From Bradyrhizobium diazoefficiens (GTDB taxonomy: Bacteria > Pseudomonadota > Alphaproteobacteria > Rhizobiales > Xanthobacteraceae): DNA of 64,000 nt. The notes below the pieces were generated by a model. It was not told where the DNA came from and did not search any database. It worked only from the letters and a program-made list of their open reading frames with translations. Position 1 is the first letter of the stretch. Each line of letters begins with the position of its first letter. Below are positions 17,764-57,961 of the stretch, piece after piece. The position numbers and the translations under genes are program-made. The stretch spans positions 2,294,001-2,358,000 of the forward strand of contig NZ_CP067101.1 in NCBI RefSeq assembly GCF_016616425.1, read 5' to 3'.

Positions 17764-18252
17764 ATGTCCAAGCTCGTACCCTGCATGTGGTTCAACGGCG
17801 ACGCCGAAGAAGCCGCGAAGTTCTACACCTCGCTCGTGCCGAATTCGGCCATCACGCATGTCCAGCGCAACGTCTCGGATAATCCTTCCGGCAAGGAAGG
17901 CTCCGTGCTGGTCGTCGAGTTCACGGTGGCCGGGCAGCCGCTGGTCGCGCTCAACGGCGGCACGAAGATGGAATACACCCACGCGCTCTCGCTGATGATC
18001 CATTGCGACGACCAGGCCCAGGTCGACAGCGTCTGGAGCGCGTTCCTCGCCCATGGCGGCAAGGAGGAGCAGTGCGGCTGGCTCAGGGATCGCTGGGGCG
18101 TGGCCTGGCAGGTGGTGCCGAAAGTGATGTTCGAGTTCCTGTCGAGCTCCGACAAGGCGGCCGCCGCACGCGCAATGCAGGCGATGATGAAAATGGTGAA
18201 ACTGGACGTCGACACGCTGCGCCGCGCCTTCGAGGGCAAGTCAGCGGCGTGA
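17764..18252 (+). CDS. VOC family protein, PhnB/3-demethylubiquinone-methyltransferase-like
   Basis: 162 residues. LVPCMWFNGDAEEAAKFYTSLVPNS is the hallmark start of the PhnB-like VOC group, and CGWLRDRWGVAWQVVPKVM the typical middle. The tail (AAARAMQAMMKMVKLDVDTLRRA) is the helical extension of this group. Annotation as 3-demethylubiquinone methyltransferase is common in databases but not supported by any methyltransferase motif. GAGGAG upstream marks the start. It lies directly downstream of another VOC gene. Confidence 0.92.
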   Translation: MSKLVPCMWFNGDAEEAAKFYTSLVPNSAITHVQRNVSDNPSGKEGSVLVVEFTVAGQPLVALNGGTKMEYTHALSLMIHCDDQAQVDSVWSAFLAHGGKEEQCGWLRDRWGVAWQVVPKVMFEFLSSSDKAAAARAMQAMMKMVKLDVDTLRRAFEGKSAA

Positions 18253-18279
18253 GGGCGACAGGGTTTCCCACACACTTGC

Positions 18280-18555
18280 TGTCATCGCCCGGCTTGACCC
18301 TATTAGATTCACACATCTCAAAAACAGAATCATCTTCAATGGCTTAGCCGAATGCCTGCCTTCGGCAATCCAATGTCGTCACAGCCGAAGCAAGTGACTC
18401 TGACGACTCACGTTTTCGTCTCGCCCACCAAGAAGTTCGAATCAGAAGTGTGCATATCGTAGGGCTTGACCGGGCGATCCAGTACTCTGAGACGGAGTGA
18501 TTGAATCGATAGACCGCGGCGTACCTGGATGCCCCGGTCAAGCTGGGGCATGACA
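18280..18555. repeat. REP palindrome interrupted by a small mobile element
   Basis: The outer parts (TGTCATCGCCCGGCTTGACC on the left, CGGGCGATCCAGTACTC to GGGGCATGACA on the right) match the intact REP at 57818-57920. That REP reads straight through CGGCTTGACCGGGCGATCC. Here the sequence is split by 163 bases (18300-18462), and GGCTTGACC appears on both sides. The region holds no gene. Confidence 0.85.
18300..18462. mobile_element. 163-bp MITE-like element, copy 1
   Basis: The 163 bases are identical to 52382-52544. The ends form imperfect inverted repeats: CCTATTAGATTCACACATCT (from 18299) against the complement of the right end, CCTACGATATGCACACTTCT, matching at 15 of 21 positions. A direct duplication GGCTTGACC flanks it (18291-18299 and 18463-18471). 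There is no convincing coding frame, so it would move only with a transposase supplied elsewhere. Internal stems include TTCGGC (18361-18366) with GCCGAA (18384-18389). Confidence 0.8.
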
Positions 18556-18589
18556 GCGGAAGTTGGGGCTGCCTTGCGCGAACTTCGTC

Positions 18590-19732
18590 CTAATAATTGA
18601 TCCTTAGGCCGACGCCGCCGTGGATGGTGTTGCCGACCGGCTGCGGGCCGCGCGTGCCGTTGGCGAAGAGATCCACGATCCAGCCCTTTTGCACGCGGAA
18701 GCCGAGCCGGCCCCCATATTCGAACCAGCCCTGGTTGCCCATGGTCGGCACCACCATGCCCTCGCCAGTCACGGCGGCGACGATGCCGCTGTGGCTCGCA
18801 AACGACTGCACCCAGCCGCCATTGATGTTGGCCTCGATGCTGCTGCCATAGAGATGCGTCCATTGGCCGCCAATCTTGACGAGGCTGGTGCGGTCGGTGC
18901 CGGTCGCGATGGTAGTGTCGAACGGATTGAAAGCCACCGCATTGTCGCTGTAGCCGGACACGCGCTGCCAGAGCTGCCAGACTTCGATCGAAGCTGCGAC
19001 CTCGTCGCGCGGAGAGAGGCGGCTCATCCAGCCGGCGCGGCCGTAGACCGCGTAGTTCGAGGCGTTGGTCGAGCTCGTCACGCTCACCGGACCGAGGCTG
19101 GTGTCGTAGTTGCGGGTGTAGCGCGCCTTTTCCCACGGCGTCAGGATCGTGCCGACGTCGAAGAATGGACGCGACGAGCCCCAGTCAGTGAAGTCGTAAC
19201 GCAGCGCGAAGGCGCCGATCGGTGCGCTCGTAATCTTGTAGCCGCCTTCGTTGTATTGCGTGTAGGCGATGCCGGCGAGCAGCGACAGATTATTGGTGAG
19301 CTCCTTGCGGCCGTGAATGCCGGCCGACAACGAACCGGCCGAGCCGAACGCGCTGATGCAATCGCTGCAATTGACCTGCTCGTTGACGCCGAGCAGCACC
19401 GTGCCCAGCATCCGGTTGGTGATCATCTGGTTGAAGCGCTGGCTTGCGAGACCGCCGATCGAATTGCCGCTGGAATCCGCACCGGTCGGTGTCGGGGTCG
19501 GGGTCGGGGATGGAGATGGACTCGGCGAGGGCGAGGGATAGGGGCTCGGCGAAGGAGAGGGTGTCGAAGACGGCGAATAGGTCCGCGCAGGCGCCGGCTG
19601 GCCGCATTCGGACCCGCATGTCGCCTGGGCCGAGGCCGGACGAATATCGAGCGCGACAAACGCAAGCCCAGTCAAGGCTGTCAGCGTGCCAGCGAGGACG
19701 AAGGCCTTCAAGCGGTGTTGCGCCATTGTCAT
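18590..19732 (-). CDS. Outer-membrane autotransporter-type beta-barrel protein with Ser/Thr-Pro linker
   Basis: 380 residues. A signal peptide (about 1-35, ending RPASA) is followed by a short Cys-containing piece (TCGSECGQ). A strictly alternating Ser/Thr-Pro linker spans residues 51-83. A C-terminal barrel of about 280 residues, rich in alternating aromatic strands, ends in RINY, an aromatic C-terminus as in outer-membrane proteins. It looks like an autotransporter beta-domain with almost no passenger. ATG at 19732 overlaps the stop of the upstream FecR-like gene as ATGA, so the two are translationally coupled. The divergent protein O-mannosyltransferase makes glycosylation of the linker a reasonable guess. 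Confidence 0.85.
   Translation of the reverse strand: MTMAQHRLKAFVLAGTLTALTGLAFVALDIRPASAQATCGSECGQPAPARTYSPSSTPSPSPSPYPSPSPSPSPSPTPTPTPTGADSSGNSIGGLASQRFNQMITNRMLGTVLLGVNEQVNCSDCISAFGSAGSLSAGIHGRKELTNNLSLLAGIAYTQYNEGGYKITSAPIGAFALRYDFTDWGSSRPFFDVGTILTPWEKARYTRNYDTSLGPVSVTSSTNASNYAVYGRAGWMSRLSPRDEVAASIEVWQLWQRVSGYSDNAVAFNPFDTTIATGTDRTSLVKIGGQWTHLYGSSIEANINGGWVQSFASHSGIVAAVTGEGMVVPTMGNQGWFEYGGRLGFRVQKGWIVDLFANGTRGPQPVGNTIHGGVGLRINY
19484..19582 (-). repeat. Tandem short repeat encoding the Ser/Thr-Pro linker
   Basis: About 100 bases of degenerate 6-base repeats, reading as Ser-Pro and then Thr-Pro codons in the barrel-protein gene. Unit changes by slippage would keep frame and alter only linker length. 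Confidence 0.8.
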
Positions 19733-20430
19733 CGCCCGCACAGCATGCCGTCATCCTGGACGGCGGGGGTGATGGTCGGCGAGGCGGCGGCATATTGGTT
19801 GACCGCGCAAAGCCCGGCGCTTGCGGCGCAGTTGGCGGCAAAGGTCCAGGGCGGCGTGTTGGTCTTGGTGATGCTGACCTTGCCGCTGGTCGACGTGATG
19901 ATTGCGGTGTCGCCCGGCTGGGTGAGCTGTACGCATTGCAAGCTCGTCGTGCAGACGCTGGCTGCGCCATCCTGGAGCACGACGACGGAGCGACCGCGCT
20001 GCGAGAGGATGTCGAGCGTCGTGCCGCGCACGCCGATGGTTGCCAGCGGCGTCGTGATCTTGTAGGCGGTCTTCTCGGAATGTCCGGTGACGAAGCGGAA
20101 TGCGCCGGTGGTCATGCGGATCGCCACGTCGCGATAGCTGTGCTCATCGTTGAAGACGGCGCGGTCGAGCTTCAGCGTCGCGCCTGGGCCGAGCGACAAA
20201 TTGGTGCTGTCGGCCATCACGAAGCGCGCCGCGCTGTCAGCGCCGGTGCGCACGGTCTCGTCGCGCAGCATGCCGTCGCCGACTTTGATCGGCGTTGTGG
20301 TCGCGGCCACGCGCACCACTTCCTTCTGGATCACGACGGCTTCGCCGACGCGAGTCTGCGCCAGCGCGCACGGCGCCGCGCACAATGCGGCCGACAACAG
20401 GGTGGAGAAAAGCCAGAAACGCAAATTCAT
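19729..20430 (-). CDS. Secreted FecR domain protein
   Basis: 233 residues with a signal peptide (MNLRFWLFSTLLSAALCAAP to CALAQ). The FecR domain covers about residues 40-160: VGDGMLRDETVRTGADSAAR, LGPGATLKLDR, then TPLATIGVRGTTLDI and VVVLQDGAASV. In this setting FecR is a periplasmic or surface protein rather than an anti-sigma factor, as no inner-membrane segment or sigma factor gene is present. The Cys residues near the C-terminus (SVCTTSLQCVQL, FAANCAASAGLC) could form disulfides. ATG at 20430 is preferred because it opens a proper signal peptide. It is the first gene of a two-gene unit with the barrel protein. Confidence 0.85.
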   Translation of the reverse strand: MNLRFWLFSTLLSAALCAAPCALAQTRVGEAVVIQKEVVRVAATTTPIKVGDGMLRDETVRTGADSAARFVMADSTNLSLGPGATLKLDRAVFNDEHSYRDVAIRMTTGAFRFVTGHSEKTAYKITTPLATIGVRGTTLDILSQRGRSVVVLQDGAASVCTTSLQCVQLTQPGDTAIITSTSGKVSITKTNTPPWTFAANCAASAGLCAVNQYAAASPTITPAVQDDGMLCGR

Positions 20431-52362: not shown

Positions 52363-52635
52363 TGTCATCGCCCGGCTTGGCCTATTAGATTCACACATCT
52401 CAAAAACAGAATCATCTTCAATGGCTTAGCCGAATGCCTGCCTTCGGCAATCCAATGTCGTCACAGCCGAAGCAAGTGACTCTGACGACTCACGTTTTCG
52501 TCTCGCCCACCAAGAAGTTCGAATCAGAAGTGTGCATATCGTAGGGCTTGGCCGGGCGATCCAGTAATCCGAGACGGTGGTGGTTGAATCGAGAAGCCGC
52601 GGCGTACTGGATTTCCCGCTTTCGCGGGGAATGAC
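52363..52635. repeat. REP palindrome interrupted by a small mobile element, second case
   Basis: The outer REP parts (TGTCATCGCCCGGCTTGG on the left, CCGGGCGATCCAGTAATCC to CGGGGAATGAC on the right) flank the 163-base element. The REP here had G where the first locus had A (GCTTGGC against GCTTGAC), and that base is the same on both sides of the insert, as a target-site duplication requires. The 416-base gap between the DUF1993 and transglycosylase genes holds no gene. Confidence 0.85.
52382..52544. mobile_element. 163-bp MITE-like element, copy 2
   Basis: Identical at all 163 positions to 18300-18462 and in the same orientation relative to the REP. Flanked by GGCTTGGC (52374-52381) and GGCTTGGCC (52545-52553). 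Ends are imperfect inverted repeats beginning CCTA. It has no transposase gene. Confidence 0.8.
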
Positions 52636-52648
52636 TATGGATAGATTA

Positions 52649-57817: not shown

Positions 57818-57920
57818 TGTCATCGTCCGGCTTGACCGGGCGATCCAGTACTCAGTGACAGCAGTGATAGAGCCGATGGGGCGCGGCATACTGGATGCCC
57901 CGCTTTCGCGGAGCATGACA
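57818..57920. repeat. Intact REP palindrome (TGTCATCGTCCGG type)
   Basis: TGTCATCGTCCGGCTTGACC (from 57818) runs directly into GGGCGATCCAGTACTC, and the right arm ends GGAGCATGACA (57920). This is the uninterrupted form of the REPs split at 18280 and 52363, and it serves as the empty-site reference. Confidence 0.88.
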
Positions 57921-57961
57921 GGGTGTGATTGGCGCGTGCGCAGCCCTTAAGCGTGCCCCCC

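Follow-up and report, generated by a model that had tools for sequence, protein, structure and literature searches.

Gene-less elements of about 160 bp at palindrome axes in Bradyrhizobium and their probable mobilisation by transposases of the IS50 subgroup

The stretch of 64,000 nucleotides analysed here (the window) carries two copies of a gene-less element, MITE-A, each inserted within a REP; the genome that contains the window, a single contig of 7,144,346 bp, is labelled G000. We consider, with a probability of about 93%, that MITE-A and its relatives are MITEs of ~160 bp moved in trans, by a DDE transposase of the IS50 subgroup, into the axes of palindromes. This reading draws on the copies of the element and their duplications, the palindrome axes in which they are found, the empty sites at the locus of copy 1, the ends of related insertion sequences (ISs), and the family to which the transposases of these ISs belong.

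Results

Copy 1 of MITE-A (CTATTAG...CGTAG, 163 bp) occupies positions 18300..18462 of the window on the + strand, where it splits a REP with the core TCGCCCGG-CTTGA-CCGGGCGA into a left part (18285..18299, +) and a right part (18463..18477, +). The target duplication, GGCTTGACC, stands at 18291..18299 and at 18463..18471. The original prediction had described this insertion and the bases repeated at its borders, together with an intact REP near 57818, and its coordinates proved right. It had also stated that the terminal inverted repeats, CTATTAGATTCACACATCTCA at the left end (18300..18320, +) and CTACGATATGCACACTTCTGA at the right end (18442..18462, -), match at 15 of 21 positions, which holds, and that both start with CCTA, which does not: the element begins with CTA, and the extra C is target sequence of copy 1. 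A conserved box, AAAANNGANTC (18320..18331, +), contains a GANTC, i.e. a CcrM-type site. Copy 2 (52382..52544, +) is identical to copy 1 as had been claimed, and is bordered by GGCTTGGC at 52374..52381 and 52545..52552; the C that follows the left duplication (52382) already belongs to the element, as its first base, and a C also comes next after the right one. The duplication of this copy is 8 bp long, or alternatively 9 bp (GGCTTGGCC) should the junction have lost one C.

A whole-genome sequence search with the 163 bases retrieved five copies from G000, all 100% identical and each in a different REP. The host REPs have five different spellings and occur in both orientations, and every copy is bordered by a duplication from its own REP: GGCTTGACC, GGCTTGGC(C), GGTTTAGCC, GGTCAAGCC, where the REP is in the opposite orientation, and GGCCTTGACT. 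The duplication is perfect and 9-10 bp long at four of the five copies, 9 bp where the REP is odd and 10 bp where it is even; with the 8 bp of copy 2, the length of 7-9 bp that had been anticipated becomes 8-10 bp. Beyond the REP, the flanks show 24-34% identity in all 10 pairs of copies and on both sides, which rules out extended flanks shared between copies. Chance is ruled out by the own-REP duplication at each of the five copies together with these unrelated outer flanks, from which it also follows that MITE-A spread by insertion.

No likely gene was found in MITE-A among ORFs of at least 100 aa, as had been noted from the letters of the window; an Rfam scan of positions 18000-18800 gave no match, and the RNA folding of the element was unremarkable (z -1.2). 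With its terminal inverted repeats, its duplications and its several copies, this short non-coding element has the characters of a MITE. The neighbours of copy 1 are convergent, an ORF with a 3-dmu-9_3-mt domain (+) and an ORF without a Pfam match (-), and those of copy 2 are a DUF1993 ORF and an ORF with a lytic-transglycosylase domain, both on the - strand; no likely gene is interrupted by either window copy. By eye, a second hairpin (...ctggat-CCCC...GGGG-atgac) follows each REP, at ~18520-18556, 52600-52637 and 57880-57922, giving a BIME-like pair; a hairpin of this type is itself targeted by the IS of another genome, G183 (L094, L099).

Copy 1 with its flanks was searched against 265 genomes of the genus, G000 included, and 248 of them matched the query. 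In G265, the relative with the best match, bases 1-541 of the query join bases 704-1201 with a 10-base overlap, which denotes an empty site. The MITE is absent from the orthologous place in all 29 sister loci (L172-L200), and the orthologous REP is uninterrupted in at least 10 of them; the other 19 either fail to align over the junction or have REPs that are different or decayed, with at least one more (L187) that looks intact. A single chance-like match of 19 bases to the MITE in L173 lies elsewhere. The identity of the five copies, the lack of relation between their outer flanks, their individual duplications and the empty sites at the locus of copy 1 agree with the proposal of the original prediction that this is a non-autonomous element of recent activity.

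A search with the terminal inverted repeats reached a second family in G000, MITE-B (159 bp), represented by six copies (L035-L040; contig C1, 837746-837904, 1287415-1287573, 1360162-1360320, 1441042-1441200, 1504656-1504814 and 1519646-1519804) that form two variants one base apart, with three copies each. Five copies are hosted by REP cores, and the sixth by CCGG-TGACG-CCGG (CCGG-N5-CCGG type) at the 3' end of a Ku-domain ORF, between that ORF and the next. Hence, 10 of the 11 MITE-A and MITE-B copies of G000 interrupt one place within REPs, the core TCGCCCGG-N5/6-CCGGGCGA. A distant blastn comparison of MITE-B with plasmids returned five records, with only short matches of 23-33 bp.

A scan of G000 for the REP core gave 46 sites at up to 2 mismatches, as compared with 13 for the reversed control pattern. 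Seven of the ten perfect cores with a 5-nt loop are occupied by MITEs and three are empty, versus one filled and seven empty among the one-mismatch cores with a 5-nt loop (one-sided Fisher p 0.023); the remaining two REP-hosted MITE copies are in 6-nt loops. Nine sites whose arms are perfectly complementary and differently spelled (four TCGTCCGG, three TCGCCCGA and two with the outermost base changed) are all empty, which points to a sequence preference besides symmetry.

The MITEs of G000 belong to a wider group. Fifteen distinct MITEs show a pairwise identity of 39-85% (mean 54%) and have in common their ends, an inner box AAAAnnGAnTC and a TTAG block. In species-representative genomes the end-and-box pattern was found in 40 stretches, from Bradyrhizobium and from MAGs labelled Xanthobacteraceae, Reyranella and Rhodospirillales, MAG labels being of a kind that can be wrong. 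A partner end is present at 34 of the 40 stretches (one of them, L210, a false short partner), and 28 of these 34 show a duplication of 9-12 bp.

The terminal repeat pattern CTANNNNRTNYACACATCT was found in 50 of the 265 genomes of the genus, and its reversed control in 0. Among the matches listed, some end pairs are ~160 bp apart and correspond to MITEs, and others are separated by 1416-1495 bp and correspond to ISs, the search having allowed IS lengths of 1200-1800 bp. The length of these partner ISs falls inside the range of the IS50 subgroup (1350-1550 bp), and the ends CTAnnnnATnCACACATCT, the left repeat of MITE-A included, fit its consensus, CW------Y---CA-A--W-, in a by-eye comparison with the table in the accessible part of PMC2266710. 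Four transposases (420-476 aa) were scanned; all four match NF033590 (IS4_3; E 4e-73 to 2e-93) and PF01609, and neither PF14706 nor PF02281 was reported for them. The one protein compared with the PDB, the transposase of L063, matches the Tn5 transposase (3ecp and 1muh, E 2e-28) over residues 13-418, and the DDE and YREK (Y-2-R-3-E-6-K) motifs are present in all six transposases checked. One end of the L063 IS agrees with the outer 19 bp of the right repeat of MITE-A at 18 positions. The interiors of MITEs and ISs do not match beyond ~19-29 bp of the ends, and the idea that the MITEs are simple deletion derivatives of the ISs seen was therefore rejected. The direct repeats of the IS50 subgroup are 8-9 bp and the duplications found here are 9-12 bp, mostly 10; for this reason we take the partner ISs as a variant of the subgroup and not as typical members of it, and the MITEs as its non-autonomous relatives, likewise variant.

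A transposase gene with the same terminal repeats, which the original prediction had suggested looking for, is thus present in other Bradyrhizobium genomes, and none was found in G000. NF033590 gave no match in G000 and matches in all 10 other genomes chosen (9 above the cut-off), PF14706 gave none in G000, and a protein search of G000 for the transposase, run without a positive control, was empty. Nine PF01609 hits in G000 were discarded, as the stretches around them carry no element end pair at up to 2 mismatches. Since no transposase of the IS50 type was found there, both MITE families look orphaned in the G000 assembly, and the mobiliser is proposed from other species. A different element of the IS4 family (NF033592, ends CACGGCTGTCCGGCAC) was observed in genome G122 at positions 571-1916 of L150, with a 9-bp duplication in the axis of the REP-like GCCCGGCACAAGGCCGGGC; it is the one inspected among six weak matches of this kind listed for that genome, and possibly is of the ISRm22 type (IS4Sa).

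The target was analysed at 97 distinct insertion sites from all fetched loci, using flanks of 25 bp per side and dropping those with short flanks or with ends that failed the pattern. A perfect duplication is present at 83 sites, with a length of 9 bp in 19 (copy 2 of the window included), 10 bp in 46, 11 bp in 16 and 12 bp in 2. When a strong palindrome is taken as at least 7 of 10 pairs, 73 of the 83 sites are hosted by strong palindromes and 57 lie exactly on the axis, the baselines at 20,000 random window positions being 11.4% and 0.73%, respectively. Of the strong sites, 16 of 73 are off-axis by 0.5-1 bp, and the offset is integral in 71 of 73, meaning that the duplication length follows the parity of the palindrome. 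Grouping the sites by target core leaves 54 different cores, of which 44 are strong and 31 are centred, and 43 of the 44 strong ones match in parity; no p value is attached to these counts, given that related sites are not independent. Ten of the 83 sites are outside strong palindromes, L092 clearly so and the others (L035, L053, L054, L093, L097, L164, L166, L170 and L219) with scores of 5-6/10.

The centre of REP palindromes, the target originally predicted, is therefore supported and at the same time too narrow, since the wider family uses the axes of several unrelated palindromes: the TCGCCCGG REPs, GTCCCTGCG-CGCAGGGAC, and the GTCCCGGC, CTCTCCCC-GGGGAGAG and ATCCCCGC types. Ten relatives on plasmids (from Sinorhizobium, Rhizobium, Ochrobactrum, Methylosinus, Bradyrhizobium and two cyanobacteria), inspected by eye, are mostly in similar hairpins; for Ochrobactrum (L164) and Picosynechococcus (L168) the hairpin is weak or doubtful, and the duplication is missing in some relatives.

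A transposase with a mere sequence preference, for a 9-12-bp core preceded by CCC or TCC and followed by GGG or GGA, a motif of which REPs would be common intergenic carriers, is the alternative that retains most weight, and we regard it as unlikely. Exact CCC...GGG flanks are present in 17 of 36 insertion contexts, the nine perfect palindromes of G000 with other arm letters are empty, and the unpalindromic CCCC site L092 has been used, all of which would fit such a preference. However, not one of the 48 CCC-N9-11-GGG sites of the window (only 7 of them outside a crude coding mask) reaches the palindrome score attained by 18 of the 36 insertion contexts, so that CCC/GGG flanks alone are an insufficient explanation; furthermore, a single IS (G183, 9 copies) is found in several unrelated palindromes, and the duplication length tracks palindrome parity. 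A mere sequence preference would have a parallel in Tn5, which prefers a symmetric 9-bp target. In our main reading, the transposase would instead read the symmetry of the target rather than one sequence.

No matching duplication was found at 14 of the 97 sites, which need recombination or decay. Some show halves of two different REPs around the insertion (L105, L122 and L152), and the spelling or the orientation of the REP differs between the two sides at L059, L063, L105, L122, L125 and L152; recombination between element copies, or decay, is the probable cause of such mismatched sides. Recombination between copies, proposed for ISRm22 in the available part of PMC1525189, would be expected to give the two-REP halves at L105, L122 and L152. 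These 14 sites fit later recombination between copies; that homologous recombination or gene conversion, and not insertion, carried the block as a whole along with its REP is highly improbable, and for the window copies is already refuted by their own duplications and unrelated flanks, to which the five REP spellings in both orientations, the outer identity of 24-34% and the empty orthologous REPs at copy 1 are added. It is just as improbable that the element, for all its location in REPs, is part of a REP/REPIN system moved by a RAYT (REP-associated tyrosine transposase), because its inverted terminal repeats are accompanied by target duplications of 8-10 bp, its ends are common to DDE ISs, and the REP is the interrupted target and not the ends of the mobile unit.

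Copy 1 contains GANTC at window positions 18306, 18327, 18396, 18405 and 18439. Such sites cluster close to the MITE ends and, in the ISs (IS ends in L054-L169), on the presumed side of the transposase promoter. The fifteen MITEs hold 38 GANTC, against 3.9 expected from the window density and 15.3 from dinucleotide shuffles; singly, only 3 of the 15 exceed their own shuffles at p <0.05, and the site in the conserved box is kept in 15 of 15. The stretches L201-L240 were left out of these counts, as their search pattern itself demanded GANTC. In 9 Bradyrhizobium ISs (<90% identity) GANTC occupies 21 of the 882 positions that lie at a distance of 21-70 bp from an end, and 19 of the 11,962 interior ones (p 1e-14). 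General composition was discarded as the mere cause, because GANTC ranks first among the 16 half-palindromic 5-mers, though CTNAG (p 5e-6) and AGNCT (p 6e-4) are also enriched. A GANTC lies 21-60 bp from the transposase-promoter-side end in 17 of 17 alphaproteobacterial ISs (one pair 91% identical, the rest <86%), with 0.77 expected and a binomial p of 2e-23 that ignores shared descent, and another is present in the 3' terminal repeat of 10 of the 17. The two cyanobacterial relatives do not serve as a clean negative control, since GANTC is absent near the ends of one and present three times in the other. A RAMA-domain protein with an open frame of 377-379 aa was found in G000 and in six other genomes of 7 searched, and among 14 control genomes only Caulobacter gave matches; the copy in L241 combines the N6_N4_Mtase and RAMA domains and is a candidate CcrM.

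Discussion

The mechanism that best accounts for these elements would start with a Tn5-like DDE transposase of the IS50 subgroup (IS4 family) that recognises the ~20-bp ends CTAnnnnATnCACACATCT of the MITE and acts in trans, probably by cut-and-paste. Insertion would take place on the axis of symmetry of C-rich/G-rich inverted repeats or close to it, with a staggered cut mostly symmetric about the axis, which would leave duplications of 9 or 11 bp in odd palindromes and of 10 or 12 bp in even ones. In G000 the autonomous IS may have once been present and then lost, or may arrive occasionally.

In the available text of PMC5390034, the GATC of Tn10 and Tn5 has two locations, one at the -10 of the promoter that drives the transposase and the other in the repeat lying downstream of that gene. 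The arrangement of GANTC described here resembles these Dam sites, a likeness that we use as a working analogy. In the accessible part of a review (PMC10073500), a table whose entry for Dam contains IS10 transposition gives 'Unknown yet' for CcrM. By this analogy CcrM could control the alphaproteobacterial IS50-like elements and their MITEs through the GANTC near the putative promoter of the transposase, through those found in many 3' terminal repeats and through that of the MITE box AAAAnnGAnTC. Such a control would tie transposition to the hemimethylated, just-replicated state, the link that Dam provides in Tn5/Tn10, while a transpososome that reads symmetry would lead the elements to hairpin axes, where the target would determine how long the duplication is. 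We give this reading as a whole about even odds.

Repeat hairpins serve as landing sites for a MITE family whose inner blocks are conserved, and a similar behaviour is seen in other Alphaproteobacteria for related MITEs and for the Tn5-like ISs that would move them. Insertion at the axis together with GANTC, a cell-cycle methylation site, near the ends suggests how the place, and perhaps the time, of a jump is chosen. With the parity rule, a Tn5-like system lends itself to a direct test of whether structure or sequence decides the choice of target, and the placement of GANTC provides a testable example in which methylation may have come to control transposition by convergence, with CcrM replacing Dam. 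REP-targeting ISs, MITEs and IS50 are already known; a literature search, with subscription journals largely outside its reach, turned up no publication on MITEs like these at hairpin axes, although a title on MITEs of Coxiella was among its results, nor any on CcrM sites in IS50-like elements.

Several known systems share part of these features. MITEPsy1 of Pseudomonas syringae (100 nt, probably derived from ISPsy2, with a 4-bp duplication at CTAG or YTAA) is, like the elements described here, short, gene-less and with IS-like ends, and no REP target is described for it in the accessible part of PMC3189936. What is available of PMC3733652 deals with the REPs of Bradyrhizobium and mentions only a few fortuitous associations between CGTC repeats and other transposase genes. 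IS231A, also of the IS4 family, resembles the present elements in that its target is a palindrome, GGG-N5-CCC. Its insertion specificity and repeats of 10-12 bp appear in the available part of PMC2266710, and its long variable duplication is a further likeness, but it is a Bacillus element of another subgroup with CAT ends. Other ISs that target REPs are ISPsy8 (IS3) and ISPa11, ISPpu9, ISPpu10 and ISRm19 (IS110), as listed in the accessible text of PMC1525189; the target is alike, whereas their transposases are of other families and their duplications, where stated, are of 0-3 bp. From the same partial source, all 10 copies of ISRm22, an IS4-family element of Sinorhizobium meliloti, are in REPs and inserted at the axis of palindromy, so that the family, the order Rhizobiales, the REP axis and the hybrid duplications of some copies are shared with the elements of this work; in contrast, ISRm22 is autonomous with a reported duplication of 6 bp (PMC1525189, whose available part mentions no MITE), and belongs to the subgroup IS4Sa with CA ends (PMC2266710, likewise in part). 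The closest likeness in ends and transposase is to the IS50 subgroup (IS4 family, Tn5): the end consensus, the size of 1350-1550 bp, the YREK and DDE motifs and a nearly full-length homology to the Tn5 transposase are alike. The elements of this work differ from IS50 in that they target palindromes, carry GANTC where IS50 has GATC, include MITEs without a gene, and have, instead of the 8-9 bp duplications of IS50, duplications of 9-12 bp matched to the symmetry of the target.
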